Part shown: piece by piece, positions 3,276 to 62,832 of the stretch
Position numbering within the stretch: position 1 is the stretch's first letter
Layout of the letters: each line of letters opens with the position of its first letter
Source of the DNA: Plumapathes pennacea
Lineage: Eukaryota > Cnidaria > Anthozoa > Antipatharia > Myriopathidae
Direction: 5' to 3'
DNA length: 64,000 nt
NCBI GenBank assembly: GCA_964036295.1
Contig: OZ038463.1
Coordinates: 21,687,069 to 21,751,068 of the forward strand
The notes under the pieces: model-generated
Database searches by the model: none
What the model was told of the DNA's origin: nothing
Seen by the model: the letters and a program-made list of their open reading frames with translations, nothing else
Position numbers and translations under genes: made by a program

Positions 3276-4884
3276 TACGGTGGCCCACAACTGTCACGGC
3301 AAAAGAGAACAGCTCACGGCAAAACAAAACAGCTCACGGCAGTAGCAAATAGCTCACGGCAAAACAAAACAGCTCACGGCAATAACAAATAGCTCACGGC
3401 AAAACAAAACAGCTCACGGCAAGATCAAATAGCTCACGGCAAAACAAAACAGCTCACGGCAAGAGCAAATAGCTCACGGCAAAACAAAACAGCCGCACGG
3501 CAAGAGCAACTAGCTCAAAAACCGCAGGCCTGGGTACAAGTAAAGCAAAGCATCATGGAACATTTCCAAGATGGCGGCTGCATGTTTCAGGTTCTGAGAT
3601 GTTTTGTGCAAGCTGCGGTTCGGAATTGTTCGAATTTGCCTATGTTTGAGATCACATCAAACAAAATTAATCGTTTGATATCCGAACTCTACCAGAGTAT
3701 ATTCATTTGTAAATGATTGTGTCCAGAAATGTTGTTTCTTTTTCTGAGATTTCAGTCGTAAATTTGGTCATCGGGTGAAAGCGATTAGCTTGCTCAATGA
3801 ACTGTTCAACTTCCTGTCTGTTGTTATCCCACAGAGAGAATATGTCATCAATGTAACGTTTCCACTCAAGTGGTTTGATGCTGCTTTGGCTTAGAATTTA
3901 TGTTTCTGTAGACGTTATGTAAATGTTGGCAAATGCAACTGCCATTTTTGTGCCCATAGCATTAGCCTGCATAGCTGGCGGTCTCATTCGATGCGGTTGA
4001 ACGGTGTTCACGGGCGCCATTTTGTACTGATGGCAGAAGGGAGACTGAGGTCAAGTGACAAAATTACGGGGCGGGGGGAGGGGGGTGGGCCTTCGGCTTG
4101 CGTTTCTCCCTACACTTCTTTCGTGCTCTCGTCACTTGCTGCGTGCTTTATTTCTGAACGGAGCACGCTTGAAGCTGGTTTATTTGTTAATCAGAACCTG
4201 AAACATGCAGCCGCCATCTTGGAAATGTTCCATGATGCTTTGCTTTACTTGTACCCAGGCCTGCGGTTTTTGAGCTAGTTGCTCTTGCCATGAGCTGTTT
4301 TGTTTAGCCGCGAGTTATTTGCTCTTGCCGTGAGCTATTTGCTCTTGCCGTGAGCTATTTGCTCTTGCCGTGAGCTGTTTTGTTTTGCCGTGAGCTATTT
4401 GCTCTTGCCGTGAGCTGTTTTGTTTTGCCGTGAGCTATTTGCTATTGCCGTGAGCTGTTTTGTTTTGCCGTGAGCTATTTGCTATTGCCGTGAGCTGTTT
4501 GTTTTGCCGTGAGCTATTTGCTCTTGCCGTGAGCTGTTTTGTTTTGCCGTGAGCTATTTGCTATTGCCGTGAGCTGTTTGTTTTGCCGTGAGCTATTTGC
4601 TATTGCCGTGAGCTGTTTGTTTTGCCGTGAGCTATTTGCTATTGCCGTGAGCTGTTTGTTTTGCCGTGAGCTATTTGCTATTGCCGTGAGCTGTTTTGTT
4701 TTGCCGTGAGCTATTTGCTCTTGCCATGAACTGTTTTGTTTTGCCGTGAGCTATTTGCTATTGCCGTGAGCTGTTTGTTTTGCCGTGAGCTATTTGCTAT
4801 TGCCGTGAGCTGTTTGTTTTGCCGTGAGCTATTTGCTATTGCCGTGAGCTGTTTGTTTTGCCGTGACAGTTGTGGGCCACCGTA
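3276..4884. mobile_element. 1.6 kb foldback transposon with tandem-array arms
   Basis: The outer ends are inverted copies beginning TACGGTGGCCCACAACTGTC; about 29 of the first 30 bases match. Immediately inside each end lies a tandem array of ~20-bp units alternating AGCTCACGGCAAAACAAAAC and AGCTCACGGCAATAGCAAAT. The left arm has roughly 11 units (3290-3520). The right arm has about 28, in inverted orientation (4270-4868). Inside the arrays is another perfect inverted pair (3519-3600 and 4189-4273). AGTATG directly flanks both ends (3270-3275 and 4885-4890), which fits a target-site duplication. The loop (3600-4188) holds a decayed reverse transcriptase fragment and no transposase that I recognise. 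The structure resembles foldback/FB-like elements; the superfamily is open. Confidence 0.85.
3704..3990 (-). pseudogene. Penelope-like reverse transcriptase fragment
   Basis: The minus strand reads, in one frame, a block with AMGTKMAVAFANIYI, then KPLEWKRYIDDIFSLW, then QFIEQANRFHPMTKFTTEIS and ETTFLDTIIYK. The order GTKMA, (Y/F)IDDIF, IKFT-like strand and NFLD-like motif is characteristic of the core of Penelope-like element reverse transcriptases; the catalytic Asp pair (IDD) is retained. In-frame stops follow INIYITSTET and FLDTIIYK, and both the N-terminal part and the GIY-YIG endonuclease are absent. It is therefore a dead fragment. It lies exactly in the loop between the foldback arms, so it was either captured by the element or inserted there. 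Confidence 0.8.
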
Positions 4885-7600: not shown

Positions 7601-7971
7601 CAAACTTAGTATAATTTATTGGCTTTGTTATCCTTCAAATATTTCCTCTCACAACGAAATTAAACATCTGGGCTGGGGACTATGAAGCGCAATCATATCA
7701 CGCCGATTTTTAAAACAATAGGGATATTTTCACGCTAGTTACTTCTGAAGACATCTTATAATTTTGTGTGTGTGTGTGTGTGTGTGTGTGAATTTAAAAT
7801 TAATAAAACTAGGGTTTATTTATTATTTATAATGACTAGCGTTCCTCAGCCAGAGGTTGTCGACCTATAACGTCCGCCTTATTCGTTCACGTGTAACGAT
7901 TCCATCGCGCTTGAGAGTAATATTCGATGGTCATAAAAAGTAGTACGTATTTTACTCATTATTCATATAAT
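7601..7971. other. Spacer with (TG)n microsatellite
   Basis: Non-coding spacer downstream of the TPR-CHAT stop codon. A (TG)n run sits at about 7765-7790. GATAACGTCC/AACGTCCGCC-type sequence near 7860-7900 resembles the central palindrome at 6943-7067, so a diverged partial copy is likely. Confidence 0.5.
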
Positions 7972-10900
7972 TTACATACCCAACAGAGTCACATCTTCCC
8001 CCAGGAGAACAAAAGGAGCCCAGTAGCGGGGATGACTGAAATTCTTGTCGCCCATCATGGCTTTCATGGCTTCATTAAGTGCCTTGCTTACACTTTCCTT
8101 GCGCATCAGGTGATCGTAAAAGTGAGTCATAAACAGAAAAGTACCGCGATCGTCAATTCTCCAAAGTGTTGCAACAACTGCACGAGCTCCGGCTCCGAGA
8201 AATGCGCGAGCGATGCCGACTACAGCCCCTGCTCTGATGTCGCCACAAGCACTGAATGCACTGCTAAGAACAACCAACTTTGCCTTGATGCGTTTATGCT
8301 GCAAATCGGACATGGTCAGCACGATGCCTTCAAGCTGGTTTGCTTTTGTTTTAGGACAAGCGAGCACCATCTCTCCATTCTTTGCATCTCCAAGAGCTGC
8401 AATATGAATCAATATGGCGCTTTCAACTTTTTTTAGGAACTTCCTTTTGGTTGCTCTCTTTCGCACAAGTGGCTTAACACTGAGAACTTCACCGACCATT
8501 TCGACTTCTTTGTTTGCAAACGGTAATCTTGGCATATGAATTACTTTGCCATCCTTTACAAATTTGTCCACATCTGGGTCTCCTACCACCAAGGGTCTTC
8601 CTAGTTGGCCTGCCAGATTTTTGGGACGGTGTTTGATTGCTTTTGCTGCTGCTAGTGACGATATTAGCCTCACTTGCAAGGATTGTGCTACGTAGTGCCT
8701 GTTCCCATCCATGAGGGCGGCAAATGGAACCAGAGCGAGTGGACCATCAGGGACAATGATTACCTGGGACCCCACCACATATTGCCGTACAGGCTCCAGA
8801 AGGATCTGGTACAAATCTTTAAGCACACGGTTCAGCACTGAGTCTCCTGGTTCTGCATCGTTGCTAGGGTTATTCGGTTTTTCAAGTCTCTCACAGTATA
8901 ATGGATCCAACATTTCCACAGCCTTGTTAATCAGTGAGACTAAATCCCCAACAGACACTTCATTCTTCATGCCAATCTTCCTCGATTCCTGGACTCTTGC
9001 AGTGGAACGTCTTTCAAACAACACATCTCCATTTGGTTGTATGATCCACGTACAAATCTCAGGCAAAAGCAACGTTACAAAAACCACAGTATGTCCCAGA
9101 ACTTTGACCACTTTACGGATTTCATGCAGATTTCCCAAACTGGCCTCAGCGATTATAACATTGGTAGTGAGCATACGATCAGCCAAAGCCTTTCCCTTCT
9201 CAGCAATAACCAGAGCCTCGTCTCTTTTCTCTCGAGACAAAAGAATTTTTGCTAGTTCCTTATAAGAATTTATGATTGAGTCCGCACAAGAAACTTTAAC
9301 TTCCATCAGCGTTGGTGCATTCTCAAACAAATCCTCACAGCATTCCACACAGTTTCGGAAATTACTTTCTGCTTTATCGTACTGGCCCAGAGATCTATAA
9401 CATGTACCAAGGTCACCATAAACGTCTCTTTCGCCTTTCTTGTCTCCTATCTCTTTTGCGATATTGAAGTGCATTTCATGATACTTTATTGCCTTGTCGT
9501 ACTGGCCAAGGGAGCCAAAACAAGTGCCGAGGTTCCCATAAGCTTCTCCTTCGCCTTTCTTGTCTCCAATCTCTTTTGCGATATTGAGGTGCATTTCCTG
9601 ATACTTTATTGCCTTGTCGTACTGGCCAAGGGAGCCAAAACAAGTGCCGAGGTTGCCAAAAGCTTCTCCTTCGCCTTTCTTGTCTCCAATCTCTTTTGCG
9701 ATATTGAGGTGCATTTCCTGATACTTTATTGCCTTGTCGTACTGGCCAAGAGAGAAAAAACAAGTGCCGAGGTTGCCATAAGCTTTACCTTCGCCTTGTT
9801 TGTCCCCGATCTCTTTTGCGATACATAGCTGCATTTCCTGATACTTTATTGCTTTGTTGTACTGGCCAAGGGAGCTAAAACAAGTGCCGAGGTTGCCATA
9901 AGCTTCTCCTTCGCCTTTCTTGTCTCCAATCTGTTTTGCGATATTGAGGTGCATTTCCTGATACTTTATTGCCTTGTCGTACTGGCCAAGGGAGCCAAAA
10001 CAAGTGCCGAGGTTGCCATAAGCTTCACCTTTGCCTTGTTTGTCCCCGATCTCTTTTGCGATACATAGCTGCATTTCTTGATACTTTATTGCCTTGCCGT
10101 ACTGGCCAAGGGAGCTAAAACAAGTGCCGAGGTTGCCATAAGCTTCTCCTTCGCCTTTCTTGCCTCCAATCTGTTTTGCGATATTGAGGTGCATTTCCTG
10201 ATACTTTATTGTCTTGTCGTACTGGCCAAGGGAGCTAAAACAAGTGCCGAGGTTGCCATAAGCTTCTCCTTCGCCTTTCTTGTCTCCAATCTCTTTTGCG
10301 ATATTGAGGAGCATTTCCTGATACTTTATTGCCTTGTCGTACTTGCCAAGGGAGCCAAAACAAGTGCCGAGGTTCCCATAAGCTTCTCCTTCGCCTTTCT
10401 TGTCTCCAATCTGTTTTGCGATACATAGCTGCATTTCCTGATACTTTATTGCCTTGTCGTACTGGCCAAGAGAGCTAAAACAAGTGCCGAGGTTGCCATA
10501 AGCTTCTCCTTTGCCTTGTTTGTCCCCGATCTCTTTTGCGATACATAGCTGCATTTTTTGATACTTTATTGCCTTGCCGTACTGACCAAGGGAGCTAAAA
10601 CAAGTGCCAAGGTTGCCATAAGCTTCTCCTTCGCCTTTCTTGTTTCCAATCTGTTTTGCGATATTGAGGTGCATTTCCTGATACTTTATTGCCTTGTCGT
10701 ACTGGCTAAGGGAGCTAAAACAAGTGCCAATGTTGCCATAAGCTTCTCCTTCTCCTTTCTTGTCTCCAATCTGCTTTGCGATATTGAGGAGCATTTCCTG
10801 GTACTTTATTGCCTTGTCGTACTGGCCAAGGGAGCTAAAACAAGTGCCGAGGTTGCCATAAGCTTCTCCTTCGCCTTTCTTGTCTCCAATCTGCTTTGCG

Positions 10901-12192
10901 ATATTGAGGTGCATTTCCTGATACTTTATTGCCTTGTCGTACTGGCCAAGAGAGAAAAAACAAGTGCCGAGGTTGCCATAAGCTTCACCTTCGCCTTGTT
11001 TGTCCCCGATCTCTTTTGCGATATTGAGGTGCATTTCCTGATACTTTATTGCCTTGTCGTACTGGCCAAGAGAGAAAAAACAAGTGCCGAGGTTGCCATA
11101 AGCTTTACCTTCGCCTTGTTTGTCCCCGATCTCTTTTGCGATACATAGCTGCATTTCTTGATACTTTATTGCCTTGTCGTACTGGCCAAGGGAGCTAAAA
11201 CAAGTGCCGAGGTTGCCATAAGCTTCACCTTCGCCTTGTTTGTCCCCGATCTCTTTTGCGATACATAGCTGCATTTCTTGATACTTTATTGCCTTGTCGT
11301 ACTGGCCAAGAGAGCCAAAACAAGTGCCGAGGTTCCCATAAGCTTCTCCTTCGCCTTTCTTGTTTCCAATCTGTTTTGCGATATTGAGGTGCATTTCCTG
11401 ATACTTTATTGCCTTGTCGTACTGGCCAAGGGAGCTAAAACAAGTGCCAAGGTTGCCATAAGCTTCTCCTTCGCCTTTCTTGTCTCCAATCTCTTTTGCG
11501 ATATTGAGGTGCATTTCATGATACTTTATTGCCTTGTCGTACTGGCCAAGGGAGCTAAAACAAGTGCCAAGGTTGCCAAAAGCTTCTCCTTCGCCTTTCT
11601 TGTCTCCAATCTCTTTTGCGATATTGAGGAGCATTTCCTGATACTTTATTGCCTTGTCGTACTGGCCAAGAGAGAAAAAACAAGTGCCGAGGTTGCCATA
11701 AGCTTTACCTTCGCCTTGTTTGTCCCCGATCTCTTTTGCGATACATAGCTGCATTTCCTGATACTTTATTGCTTTGTTGTACTGGCCAAGGGAGCTAAAA
11801 CAAGTGCCGAGGTTGCCATAAGCTTCACCTTCGCCTTGTTTTTCCCCGATCTCTTTTGCGATACATAGCTGCATTTCTTGATACTTTATTGCCTTGCCGT
11901 ACTGGCCAAGGGATCTAAAACAAGTGCCGAGGTTGCCATAAGCTTCTCCTTCGCCTTTCTTGTCTCCAATCTGTTTTGTGATATTTAGGTGCATTTCTTG
12001 ATACTGTATCGCCTTTTCGTGCTGGCCAAGGTAACCATAACAAGCGCCAAGTTTGCCATAAGCATTTCCTTCGCCTTGTTTGTCTCCATTCTCCTTTGCT
12101 ATAGTGAGTTGTGTTTCATGATATTTGATCGCCTTGTTCTCCTGTACTTCAGTATCCTTGCAGTTGCCAGGTAGCCCTTTAGAATCATCCAT
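7972..12192 (-). CDS. TPR-repeat CHAT-domain protein (TTC28-like), predicted pseudoprotease
   Basis: A single-exon gene of 1406 codons. About 23 tetratricopeptide units of exactly 40 residues (roughly residues 26-950) follow a short N-terminus. The consensus includes GEGEAYGNLGTCFSSLGQYD, KAIKYQEM and LNIAKEIGDK. After a linker comes a C-terminal CHAT domain (about 1120-1400) with VIIVPDGPLALVPFAALMDG, GVVGIARAFLG-like (AVVGIARAFLGAGARAVVAT) and YWAPFVLLGED. CHAT domains are caspase-like cysteine peptidases with a His-Cys pair. Here the HIAAHG motif reads HIAALG (Leu1267, codon at 8392-8394), and the LSCCHSG motif reads LSSAFSA (Ala1312 at the nucleophile, codon at 8257-8259). The protein is therefore probably inactive as a protease and may act as a scaffold. 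The ATG has A at -3 and G at +4. Family size and function in cnidarians are poorly known; no NACHT, NB-ARC or death domain is visible. Confidence 0.9.
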   Translation of the reverse strand: MDDSKGLPGNCKDTEVQENKAIKYHETQLTIAKENGDKQGEGNAYGKLGACYGYLGQHEKAIQYQEMHLNITKQIGDKKGEGEAYGNLGTCFRSLGQYGKAIKYQEMQLCIAKEIGEKQGEGEAYGNLGTCFSSLGQYNKAIKYQEMQLCIAKEIGDKQGEGKAYGNLGTCFFSLGQYDKAIKYQEMLLNIAKEIGDKKGEGEAFGNLGTCFSSLGQYDKAIKYHEMHLNIAKEIGDKKGEGEAYGNLGTCFSSLGQYDKAIKYQEMHLNIAKQIGNKKGEGEAYGNLGTCFGSLGQYDKAIKYQEMQLCIAKEIGDKQGEGEAYGNLGTCFSSLGQYDKAIKYQEMQLCIAKEIGDKQGEGKAYGNLGTCFFSLGQYDKAIKYQEMHLNIAKEIGDKQGEGEAYGNLGTCFFSLGQYDKAIKYQEMHLNIAKQIGDKKGEGEAYGNLGTCFSSLGQYDKAIKYQEMLLNIAKQIGDKKGEGEAYGNIGTCFSSLSQYDKAIKYQEMHLNIAKQIGNKKGEGEAYGNLGTCFSSLGQYGKAIKYQKMQLCIAKEIGDKQGKGEAYGNLGTCFSSLGQYDKAIKYQEMQLCIAKQIGDKKGEGEAYGNLGTCFGSLGKYDKAIKYQEMLLNIAKEIGDKKGEGEAYGNLGTCFSSLGQYDKTIKYQEMHLNIAKQIGGKKGEGEAYGNLGTCFSSLGQYGKAIKYQEMQLCIAKEIGDKQGKGEAYGNLGTCFGSLGQYDKAIKYQEMHLNIAKQIGDKKGEGEAYGNLGTCFSSLGQYNKAIKYQEMQLCIAKEIGDKQGEGKAYGNLGTCFFSLGQYDKAIKYQEMHLNIAKEIGDKKGEGEAFGNLGTCFGSLGQYDKAIKYQEMHLNIAKEIGDKKGEGEAYGNLGTCFGSLGQYDKAIKYHEMHFNIAKEIGDKKGERDVYGDLGTCYRSLGQYDKAESNFRNCVECCEDLFENAPTLMEVKVSCADSIINSYKELAKILLSREKRDEALVIAEKGKALADRMLTTNVIIAEASLGNLHEIRKVVKVLGHTVVFVTLLLPEICTWIIQPNGDVLFERRSTARVQESRKIGMKNEVSVGDLVSLINKAVEMLDPLYCERLEKPNNPSNDAEPGDSVLNRVLKDLYQILLEPVRQYVVGSQVIIVPDGPLALVPFAALMDGNRHYVAQSLQVRLISSLAAAKAIKHRPKNLAGQLGRPLVVGDPDVDKFVKDGKVIHMPRLPFANKEVEMVGEVLSVKPLVRKRATKRKFLKKVESAILIHIAALGDAKNGEMVLACPKTKANQLEGIVLTMSDLQHKRIKAKLVVLSSAFSACGDIRAGAVVGIARAFLGAGARAVVATLWRIDDRGTFLFMTHFYDHLMRKESVSKALNEAMKAMMGDKNFSHPRYWAPFVLLGEDVTLLGM
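9440..12130 (-). repeat. 120-bp coding tandem array (about 23 TPR units)
   Basis: The TPR section of the gene is a strict 120-bp tandem repeat with very high identity between units. Units fall into a few types that differ at fixed sites: EMQLCIAKEIGDKQGEG, EMHLNIAK(E/Q)IGDKKGEG and EMLLNIAK; and CFSSLG, CFGSLG or CFFSLG. Multi-unit blocks recur: units 2-4 resemble 18-20, and units 12-13 resemble 16-17. This indicates recent block duplication or gene conversion. Edge units at each end are diverged, as expected for an array homogenised from its middle. The even spacing also keeps long open frames on the opposite strand. Confidence 0.95.
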
Positions 12193-19745: not shown

Positions 19746-20500
19746 TTACTTTGAACGGCCTACAATAGACAACAAAGTTACCACTGAATATCTAATGTCC
19801 CACTGCTTATCAAAAAGAGATACATTTCCCCCCATGAGTACAAACGGAGCCCAGTACCGGGGGTGACGGAATTCCTTAAGCTCTCTCACGGCTTTCATAG
19901 CTTCATTGAGTGCCTCGTTTGCACTTTCTCCATGCCACAGGTGGTCATAGAAATGAGATATAAACCTCAGAGTGGCCCCATCATCAACTGCCCATAGCGC
20001 TGCAACAACTGCTCGGAGCTCCAGCTCCGAGAAATGCACGAGCGATGCCGATTACACCATCTCCCTAGCGTCACCACAGCCGCTGTGGCAGCAACTGAGG
20101 ACAACCAGCTTTGCCTTTAAGCGTTTTCGTCCCAAATCAGCAATGGTCAGCATAATATCTTCTATATTTGCTATGTTACTTCCAGAACAACGGGCAAGCA
20201 ATATCTCTCCTCTCTTTGAATCTCCGTGAGCTGCGATGTGACTCAAATTGGCATTTTCAACTCTTTTTAGAATGTTTTCTTTAGTCGCTCTTTTTCCACG
20301 AGTGGCTTTACCCTGAGGAACTCTGCCGACAGTTTCGACTTCTGTTCTCGCGCATGGTAGCCTTGGCACGGAATGTACTTCTTCACCCTTCTTAACCTAA
20401 CCCACGTTCCGGTCTCCTACTACCAAGGGACTTGCTTGGCCTGCTGGTTCTTGTGGGCGCTCTTTGATCATCTTTGCTGTCTTCAGTGATAAACCAGGTC
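19746..20500 (-). pseudogene. Frameshifted CHAT-domain gene fragment
   Basis: Two adjacent reading frames together cover the C-terminal half of a CHAT domain related to the one at 7972-12192. The upstream part (20369-20052) has MPRLPCARTEVE, HIAAHGDSKRGE and VVLSCCHSGCGD. The downstream part (20039-19746) has VVAALWAVDDGAT, FISHFYDHLWHGESANEALN and RHPRYWAPFVLMGG. The frame changes near 20040-20055, directly after the Cys motif. Weak homology continues to about 20500 (TACTACCAAGGG region), and the TPR part is missing. Both catalytic-type residues (His in HIAAHG, second Cys in SCCHSG) are still present, unlike in the intact gene. It is most simply a decayed paralogue; an assembly error could mimic the frameshift. 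Confidence 0.85.
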
Positions 20501-21455: not shown

Positions 21456-23450
21456 CTACTGTACACTATCTTCTTCAGTACTCGAAGTCACGTGTGTAAA
21501 CCCTGCCGCTCCGACCAGCTGATCAGTTCGTAGCAACTGCGATACACACTGCAGCAAATGGCTGAACAACAAATACTTTCCCATGAACGGCTCAAAAATC
21601 TCCCTTTCAAAGGGATTGAAAGAATTTCCAGTTCTTCCGTCGACCCCATGTGCAGTTCCGCTCACCCATGCCTTGTCAGTAGACGACAATACATGGACAA
21701 GTTTACTTTTTTGACCAATGGATGTGTGTGAATTAAGATGTAGCTGCCTTGGTATTGCCAAAAGGCCTTTACTCAAGATACGACAAGCTAAGGCCTCATA
21801 GGAATCTGCTGAAGTCTTGGAATAAATGTCCAACTCGTGGCTAACGACAGCTTCTGTAGCCCCTCCAGCTGGTAAGAGCTTCAACTCGTCCTGGTCTTTG
21901 TCAAACGCCATTCGGATGGTTTTCAACGCGCCAAGCACAGCAATAGAGTATTGCTGGCAAATGCCTTGAAATGACCCGCACAGCAACAAACTGTGAGGTG
22001 AGGCTTCCTTAGTGTCCGTCTGGACACCCAGGTGGGGTGAGGCTTTCTTAGTGTTCGTCTGGACACCCAGGTGGGGTGAGGCTTCCTCAGTGTCTGTCTG
22101 GACACCTAGGTGGAGCGAGGCTTCCTTAGTGTCCATTTGGACACCAAGGTGGGGTGCGGCTTCCTTAGTGTCCGTCTGGACACCCAGGTGGGGTGAGGCT
22201 TCCTTAGTGTCCGTCTGGACACCCAGGTGGGGTGACGCTTTCTTAGTGTCCGTCTGGACACCCAGGTGGGGTGCAGCTTCCTTAGTGTCCGTCTGGACAC
22301 CAAGATGGACGTATCTGTGCTGTCCGAGGATGGTTCGTTTACAAAACACTCCTGTACCCACAAAGCTGGTGGCGACGCAATCTTCGTACACATCAAATTC
22401 TGCTAGTGGGTTAATTTGAGCGCATACACAGATATATTCTGTGTATTCTGGAGGAATCATGTGAACAGCGCAAATCTTAAGCTGCCGACAAAAGTGCAAG
22501 ATGAAGTCAGCCAGTGTTTCAGAGGACAGAATCAGACTTACACCATTGTTTTTCAACTTATTTAAAATCCGTAGAACTCGCGTCCTTTTCCAAATCAAAG
22601 CATCGTCTAAAGCAGACACGCTTTTCAATTCAAGGGCAGCATTAACCTGCAGGTCATCCGAATCTAACCGGCAATCAAGGACGACGAATTTGAACGGGCC
22701 ATCGACAGGTGACAAGGGAAGGTTGTGTTGATCTGTAGCAAAGTCTCGCGGAATAAGAATTCCTGGAAGAACTTTCGAAGAGGTCACAGGAATTCCTGGA
22801 ACTTCGACGCAAAGCCGTGGAAAATTGTCAATCAATCGTAAAACTGTATCGTGGATCGTTTTGTCTTCTGCAGACGACCAAGCATTGAACACAAACTCGG
22901 CAAGAAGCTTGCTCAATAGGGACACAGTGCCAGATGGAAATTTACCGCAGAGAGTAGTCTTTATAAGAGATATGACTCTCTGTTTCACTGAAATGTTACT
23001 TTCGGTACGTAAATTAACCTTCAGAGATAATCTCTCCAGTATCGGTAGTACTAATGTATCCAGAATTCTCGCGTTTAGCGAGGCGAATTTCTGTGACATT
23101 GCGATGAGAAACCTTTTTTGCCCTGGGTCAAGTTCAGTCGAGTCCCTGGTAATTGGGCGGCCTTCATAGCTGTTCATAGTACTCCTCAGCACTTCAGCAA
23201 GGATCAAGACAAATGACGAAGCACCATCGCCTGCGATTCCACAATGGCAAACGATCTTGTCAACAATCATGCGTCCAATCGGATGGGCGACTGAGAGCGA
23301 CTTGAGAATCACAGCACCGCTGTTTGTTATGAGAATATTCCCAGAAGAGGATGTTAACATGACGTCTAGACCGTTGGGTCCGAAAGTACTCTTTAAAACG
23401 CTTTCCAAACTCTGCGAAAGCATCACAGCATCTTTCACGACAACCGCCAT
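21456..23450 (-). CDS. BBS10: BBS10, chaperonin-like Bardet-Biedl protein
   Basis: A single-exon gene of 664 codons. BBS10 is a vertebrate-type divergent group II chaperonin homologue that works with MKKS, BBS12 and CCT subunits to assemble the BBSome for ciliary membrane traffic. The N-terminus keeps chaperonin motifs (GPNGLDV at 24-30, ILITNSGAVILKSL, HPIGRMIVDKI, GDGAS at 74-78). Later segments match BBS10 specifically as I remember it: VPGIPVTSSKVLPGILIPRDF, HRYVHLGVQ, HSLLLCGSFQGICQQ and MGKYLLFSHLLQCVSQLL near the C-terminus. An eight-copy 13-residue repeat (residues 382-485) interrupts the region between HRYVHLG and LLLCG. The ATG has A at -3 and G at +4. A weaker out-of-frame ATG 7 bases upstream opens a 65-codon overlapping uORF. 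It is divergent from RUN-DEF8. Confidence 0.9.
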   Translation of the reverse strand: MAVVVKDAVMLSQSLESVLKSTFGPNGLDVMLTSSSGNILITNSGAVILKSLSVAHPIGRMIVDKIVCHCGIAGDGASSFVLILAEVLRSTMNSYEGRPITRDSTELDPGQKRFLIAMSQKFASLNARILDTLVLPILERLSLKVNLRTESNISVKQRVISLIKTTLCGKFPSGTVSLLSKLLAEFVFNAWSSAEDKTIHDTVLRLIDNFPRLCVEVPGIPVTSSKVLPGILIPRDFATDQHNLPLSPVDGPFKFVVLDCRLDSDDLQVNAALELKSVSALDDALIWKRTRVLRILNKLKNNGVSLILSSETLADFILHFCRQLKICAVHMIPPEYTEYICVCAQINPLAEFDVYEDCVATSFVGTGVFCKRTILGQHRYVHLGVQTDTKEAAPHLGVQTDTKKASPHLGVQTDTKEASPHLGVQTDTKEAAPHLGVQMDTKEASLHLGVQTDTEEASPHLGVQTNTKKASPHLGVQTDTKEASPHSLLLCGSFQGICQQYSIAVLGALKTIRMAFDKDQDELKLLPAGGATEAVVSHELDIYSKTSADSYEALACRILSKGLLAIPRQLHLNSHTSIGQKSKLVHVLSSTDKAWVSGTAHGVDGRTGNSFNPFEREIFEPFMGKYLLFSHLLQCVSQLLRTDQLVGAAGFTHVTSSTEEDSVQ
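21996..22307 (-). repeat. In-frame 39-bp coding minisatellite in BBS10
   Basis: Exactly 8 x 39 bp encode eight copies of HLGVQTDTKEASP with minor variants (TDTKEAAP, MDTKEASL, TDTEEASP, TNTKKASP). The unit begins at the conserved HLG of the HRYVHLG motif and ends at the HSLLLCG motif, so it arose by tandem duplication of resident sequence. Length is a multiple of three in every unit, so the frame is kept. Confidence 0.95.

Positions 23451-55792: not shown

Positions 55793-62832
<7,040 letters not shown>

Follow-up and report, generated by a model that had tools for sequence, protein, structure and literature searches.

A coral TPR-CHAT open reading frame without its catalytic dyad, a candidate retained pseudoprotease

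The TPR-CHAT locus

In the window, by which we mean the whole 64,000-nucleotide stretch of Plumapathes pennacea DNA analysed here, the minus strand carries a long TPR-CHAT open reading frame (ORF) and the remains of a second CHAT sequence. The features on which the analysis is based are the following:

7972-12192, minus strand: TPR-CHAT ORF of 1406 aa, ATG to TAA, in a single open frame
9363-12137, minus strand: TPR array, 120-bp unit, 23.1 copies, 90% matches
7996-8829, minus strand: CHAT domain, residues 1122-1399 (Pfam PF12770, E 8.9e-55)
8389-8406, minus strand: His motif HIAALG, in which Leu1267 replaces the catalytic His
8242-8268, minus strand: nucleophile loop LSSAFSACG, in which Ala1312 replaces the catalytic Cys
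7815-7824, minus strand: two overlapping AATAAA hexamers, weak evidence of a poly(A) signal
19812-20489, minus strand: decayed, 5′-truncated CHAT fragment, 53% identical to the CHAT of the ORF (E 9e-56) and 7.6 kb from it

No internal stop interrupts the 1406 codons of the TPR-CHAT ORF. Upstream of its ATG, the frame stays open for 25 codons without another ATG; therefore, a 5′ exon is possible. The encoded protein contains 23 in-register TPR units of 40 residues, of which the first and last are divergent, with many Pfam TPR matches. The PF12770 match reaches 186.6 bits against a curated cut-off of 24 and covers profile positions 2-289 of 289. This layout, a long array of TPRs and then one CHAT at the C-terminus, fits the architecture of the animal TPR-CHAT (TTC28-like) proteins. 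Neither a broken frame nor a truncation, either of which would mark a pseudogene, is seen in the ORF, and its CHAT is complete. The first-pass annotation called the protein giant, a term that holds at 1406 aa only in a relative sense, since the TPR part is reported to reach 3,832 aa in Acropora digitifera (PMC12314368). The overlapping hexamers lie 150 and 154 nt past the first base of the stop codon, and two more are found at 354 and 553 nt. The plus-strand ORFs at 9469-9828, 10078-10428, 10558-11148 and 11278-11748 overlie the TPR array because the 120-bp repeat has an open complementary frame, and they are no evidence of genes.

Nearby ORFs match a Cpn60/TCP1-like protein, a VTT domain, a Rubicon homology domain and a DREV methyltransferase; from the last three of these matches, we infer that the DNA is of animal origin. 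The Cpn60/TCP1 family member is a single-frame ORF of 664 aa (21456-23450, minus strand) with a 39-bp tandem repeat (21993-22308), and a Pfam Lysostaphin_N match under the cut-off overlies this repeat. ARAGORN found no tRNA genes in the window. Two 40-bp minisatellite arrays, located at 3294-3517 and 4271-4866, form an inverted pair approximately 750 bp apart, and their consensus units, compared by eye, are reverse complements save one base. Additionally, approximately 2.5 kb of an 11-bp satellite (59400-61877; 222.5 copies, 70% matches) shows a strong strand asymmetry, with a GC skew of +0.40 and an AT skew of -0.46 in 60001-62000. The NCBIfam search gave no match, and the one weak PADLOC match (BovA, E 0.0054) was left out of the argument.

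The CHAT fragment at 19812-20489 contains in-frame stops and one out-of-frame stretch, and no TPR part belonging to it was found; therefore, we regard it as a decayed, truncated copy. It keeps the motifs HIAAHGD and LSCCHSG and is the source, within the window itself, of the motifs with which the ORF is compared below. The window thus pairs an intact gene without the dyad with a broken copy that keeps it.

Replacement of the catalytic residues

The first-pass annotation had read both catalytic residues of the ORF as replaced, and our alignment confirmed it: Leu1267 and Ala1312 stand in the columns of the His and Cys of bacterial CHATs. Leu1267 is encoded by CTT (window 8394-8392) in the motif H1263-I-A-A-L1267-G, and Ala1312 by GCA (window 8259-8257) in the motif L1309-S-S-A1312-F-S-A-C-G. 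Ser1311, Phe1313 and Ala1315 likewise differ from the LSCCHSG motif of the decayed neighbour, i.e., four of five residues differ between CCHSG in the neighbour and SAFSA in the ORF. The strand preceding the loop, residues 1303-1310, is identical to the neighbour at all eight positions. The replacement of Cys by Ala takes at least two coding steps, and together with that of His by Leu, the minimum is three. A sequencing error is an unlikely origin of these differences: the loop departs from the neighbour in several codons, including double changes, and the frame is otherwise open.

The bacterial CHATs were examined in two samples. The first control consisted of the best 80 of 579 bacterial CHATs, obtained with two patterns, one of which contained the Cys; aligned to residues 1015-1406, all 80 kept both the catalytic His and the catalytic Cys. 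Since this search favoured the Cys, the second sample was chosen by Pfam profile, among the matches listed, from 5 genomes that were themselves reached through loci of the first control. We fetched 130 places, i.e., 30 plus 60 near-full-length CHATs and then 40 lower-scoring or partial places, one of which (L188) could be matched in no frame and was left out, so that 129 remained for alignment. Both residues were kept in 89 of the 90 near-full-length CHATs and in all 39 aligned lower-scoring or partial places, so that, among the matches listed, the dyad was kept in 128/129, the His was lost in one and both residues were lost in none. The sole departure (L113, 1501-2370) is a bacterial CHAT in a 452-aa open frame with HLAANA, in which Asn stands for His, and LTGCDTA. 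In three of the sampled genomes, at least 53, at least 31 and at least 59 CHAT matches were found; loss of the dyad is rare in the sampled bacterial CHATs, even in genomes with dozens of copies. On viral contigs, scans with the CHAT and TPR proteins of the window or with one exact 27-base pattern found no relatives; a scan with the bacterial alignment found two CHATs (L089 and L090), which were left out of these counts.

Based on the same best 80 of 579 bacterial CHATs, we then compared the ORF with the bacterial sequences column by column. At columns conserved in at least 95%, it keeps 29/34 and departs at five, namely both catalytic positions, loop residues 1311 and 1314, and one Ser that is replaced by Thr. 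In the 24 such columns that are also common to the neighbour, the ORF keeps 22 and departs exactly at 1267 (His) and 1312 (Cys). At columns conserved in at least 90%, it keeps 36/45, or 27/30 where the neighbour agrees, the third departure being a change from Val1346 to Ile. At the 80% threshold, 44 of 65 columns are kept and 21 are not. The ORF has Ser1311 and Ser1314 where bacteria have Ala and Thr; since the neighbour also departs there, with Cys and Ser, these two residues are not damage by themselves. The first-pass statement that the gene shows no other damage thus stands for the open frame and has to be given up for the nucleophile loop and for the wider set of conserved columns.

A protease that is still active through other active-site residues would have to draw on a substitute pair. 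Candidates lie close by, namely C1316 four residues after the nucleophile position, H1263 four residues before that of the catalytic His, and Ser1311 adjoining the nucleophile position. Each His and Cys between residues 1015 and 1406 was listed and compared by sequence, and no substitute pair was found in this region. H1263, as a relocated His, is rejected, being invariant beside the catalytic His in all 80 bacterial CHATs of the first control (best 80 of 579), and so is C1316 as a relocated nucleophile, being also present in the neighbour with its normal motifs. Within the comparable part, 1179-1404, the ORF has no Cys that is new with respect to the neighbour, and the only new His, H1188 and H1299, are distant from the motifs in sequence. 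Continued activity by such residues is highly improbable, and the reading of a dead site, for which the first-pass annotation had named another active-site His or Cys as the critical test, stands as far as the primary structure goes.

An AlphaFold2 model of residues 1015-1406, built from an 81-row alignment, reached a pLDDT of 82.5 and a pTM of 0.85, and strands lead into both catalytic motifs. With this model, Foldseek found 45 PDB matches that reach E 0.001, the best being 8d9f, the Craspase TPR-CHAT (E 8.9e-13), and the fourth 5fby, separase (E 1.5e-12). The model thus predicts with fair confidence an intact CHAT fold of the caspase/separase kind. When the CHAT sequence alone was searched against the PDB, only chance matches were obtained; profiles did better. 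Foldseek further matched the model to chains 9ijj_A (E 6e-5) and 9ijj_B (E 5e-4) from the central apparatus of mouse sperm, where a related fold may be used structurally and without cutting.

The ORF lacks the His-Cys dyad by which a catalytic CHAT cysteine peptidase is recognized. Taken together, the dyad columns, the conserved-column test, the predicted fold and the lack of a substitute His or Cys give good support, at the level of sequence and model, to the reading of the ORF as a catalytically dead TPR-CHAT. Loss of the catalytic residues with the fold kept, here a predicted fold, is what defines a pseudoprotease.

Possible retention and function

A copy free of selection would soon break. 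According to a Poisson calculation that ignores indels and assumes an active ancestor, a neutral copy of 1406 codons is expected to gain 2.1 new stops at a distance of 0.01 per site (P of none 0.12) and 10.5 at 0.05 per site (P of none 3e-5). The chance of three hits in the two catalytic codons at a neutral distance of 0.05 is 0.004. The open frame therefore speaks for retention.

The comparison of the ORF with the neighbour CHAT over 207 comparable codons gave a dS of 0.97, a dN of 0.30 and a dN/dS of 0.31, in which both lineages are mixed; the comparison excludes stops, gaps and codons 1321-1336, where the neighbour is read out of frame. Among the TPR units, pN/pS was 0.31 for the 19 core units, 0.43 for all 23 units and 0.33 when 21 units were compared in all 210 pairs. 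It was higher in the closest pairs: the 51 with no more than 6 differences gave 0.51, and the 13 with no more than 3 gave 0.71, values that are biased by the selection of pairs for few differences. Subject to this bias, the youngest TPR repeats show weaker constraint than the array overall. The dN/dS and the core-unit pN/pS fit constraint but may reflect selection that preceded the loss of the dyad, and the single neighbour, a decayed copy whose synonymous sites have diverged far, gives no date for this loss. The first-pass view of a maintained gene, with dN/dS on the CHAT part as its proposed check, is therefore upheld in part: the open frame and the change of only the catalytic pair among the 24 columns speak for it, whereas the possibly earlier origin of the dN/dS signal and the values of 0.51-0.71 in the closest TPR pairs speak against it. 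On balance, the evidence on selection leans to retention, and a retained role for the dead TPR-CHAT is plausible.

The main rival explanation is a pseudogene in the making, i.e., a duplicate in a birth-and-death family in which drift has removed catalysis before any stop has arisen. Its sister fragment in the window is already dead, the constraint in the closest TPR unit pairs is weak, and the coral family is reported to be tandemly duplicated and variable in copy number (PMC12314368). Nevertheless, the changes in the dyad and loop amount to several steps, yet 22 other strongly conserved columns and the whole frame are intact, and a neutral distance giving even the three catalytic steps would bring many stops. 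We consider such a dying copy somewhat unlikely.

According to another explanation, the CHAT is a passive relic and the protein works via its TPR array alone, the loss of the dyad being inconsequential, as may hold for TTC28-type proteins. Human TTC28 may likewise be without a Cys at the nucleophile position, which would favour this explanation; if so, dyad loss in the animal TPR-CHAT family would be less unusual than the bacterial counts suggest. What the TPR and CHAT domains do in human TTC28/TPRBK is described as poorly understood (PMC12314368), and one bacterial TPR-CHAT, described in work on DiCas7-11, inhibits its nuclease partner with the N-terminal part being sufficient (PMC11089037). 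However, the CHAT of the ORF is well kept at the most conserved columns (29/34), which points to a domain that is still required or was so until recently. A passive relic appears quite improbable.

A retained pseudoprotease that acts as a decoy or scaffold has, in our judgement, about an even chance of being the correct reading. Under this reading, a member of the expanded animal TPR-CHAT family would have lost both catalytic residues and kept its frame, a CHAT predicted to be foldable and its TPR array, and the protein would most likely work by binding, without cutting. Approximately two dozen similar TPR units joined to a dead CHAT with a predicted fold would be the anatomy of a binder. The TPR superhelix, whose units are alike and presumably like those of active paralogues, could capture whatever ligands or partners those paralogues bind; the dead CHAT could stand in for an active one and thereby set a threshold or block the pathway. 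The protein could thus serve as a decoy, a scaffold or a natural substrate trap, and the simplest model would be competition for the ligands, partners or substrates of active TPR-CHATs. Pseudo-orthocaspases (PMC6426788, PMC7889975) are a precedent for a caspase-fold protein that has a role despite a dead site, and the DiCas7-11 study (PMC11089037) is one for inhibition through the N-terminal part of a TPR-CHAT. In the fungus Podospora anserina, a TPR-bearing CHAT protease is reported to activate a gasdermin (review PMC12881547), and TTC28-like TPRs are reported fused to TRADD-N domains in immune-type proteins of animals (PMC8195603). A gasdermin-activating pathway is one kind that such a decoy could restrain.

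The broader proposal that corals keep dead TPR-CHATs as substrate traps or decoys competing with the active proteases of the family is, at present, doubtful. If true, dead TPR-CHATs would be the inhibitor arm of an expanded caspase-like network. Inactive caspase relatives restrain caspases elsewhere.

Known systems and significance

Many coral genomes carry a strongly expanded set of TPR-CHAT genes, whose role there is not established; reported copy numbers are 276 and 304 in two Acropora and range from 6 to 362 among the corals compared (PMC12314368). If some of these copies are retained dead proteases, the family would be a mix of cutters and binders, not simply proteases, and dyad status would be an easy first test for sorting TPR-CHAT copies by function. 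If dead copies prove young and broken elsewhere, ordinary gene death would be the account. The expansion in corals and the existence of dead caspase relatives are already known. As far as the available main texts of the literature searched go, neither a dead member of the TPR-CHAT family nor the dyad status of coral TPR-CHATs is described.

The closest known system is the coral TPR-CHAT (TTC28-like) family (PMC12314368, PMC9145168, PMC6208414). Like the ORF, its members have a long TPR array and then one C-terminal CHAT, and the family is marked by tandem duplication and variable TPR length. Unlike the family as described, the ORF is without both catalytic residues; the available text of these accounts is silent on the dyad.

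Pseudo-orthocaspases (PMC6426788, PMC7889975) resemble the ORF in keeping the caspase fold with both dyad residues replaced. They belong to the p20 family, have Tyr and Ser for His and Cys, and are reported to be conserved over many genomes of photosynthetic bacteria, one of them with a knock-out phenotype.

Csx29 of Craspase (PDB 8d9f and 7y9x; PMC9729208), the source of the best structural match, shares with the ORF a CHAT fold and a TPR part. In contrast to the ORF, it is described as having an active dyad, H585/C627, which matches H2003/C2029 of human separase (PMC9729208). Additionally, the Craspase TPR-CHAT works with a CRISPR effector and RNA, and nothing of these was seen around the ORF. 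Separase (PDB 5fby) shares with the ORF, judged from the model, a caspase-like fold of the CHAT kind and differs from it by its active His-Cys dyad.
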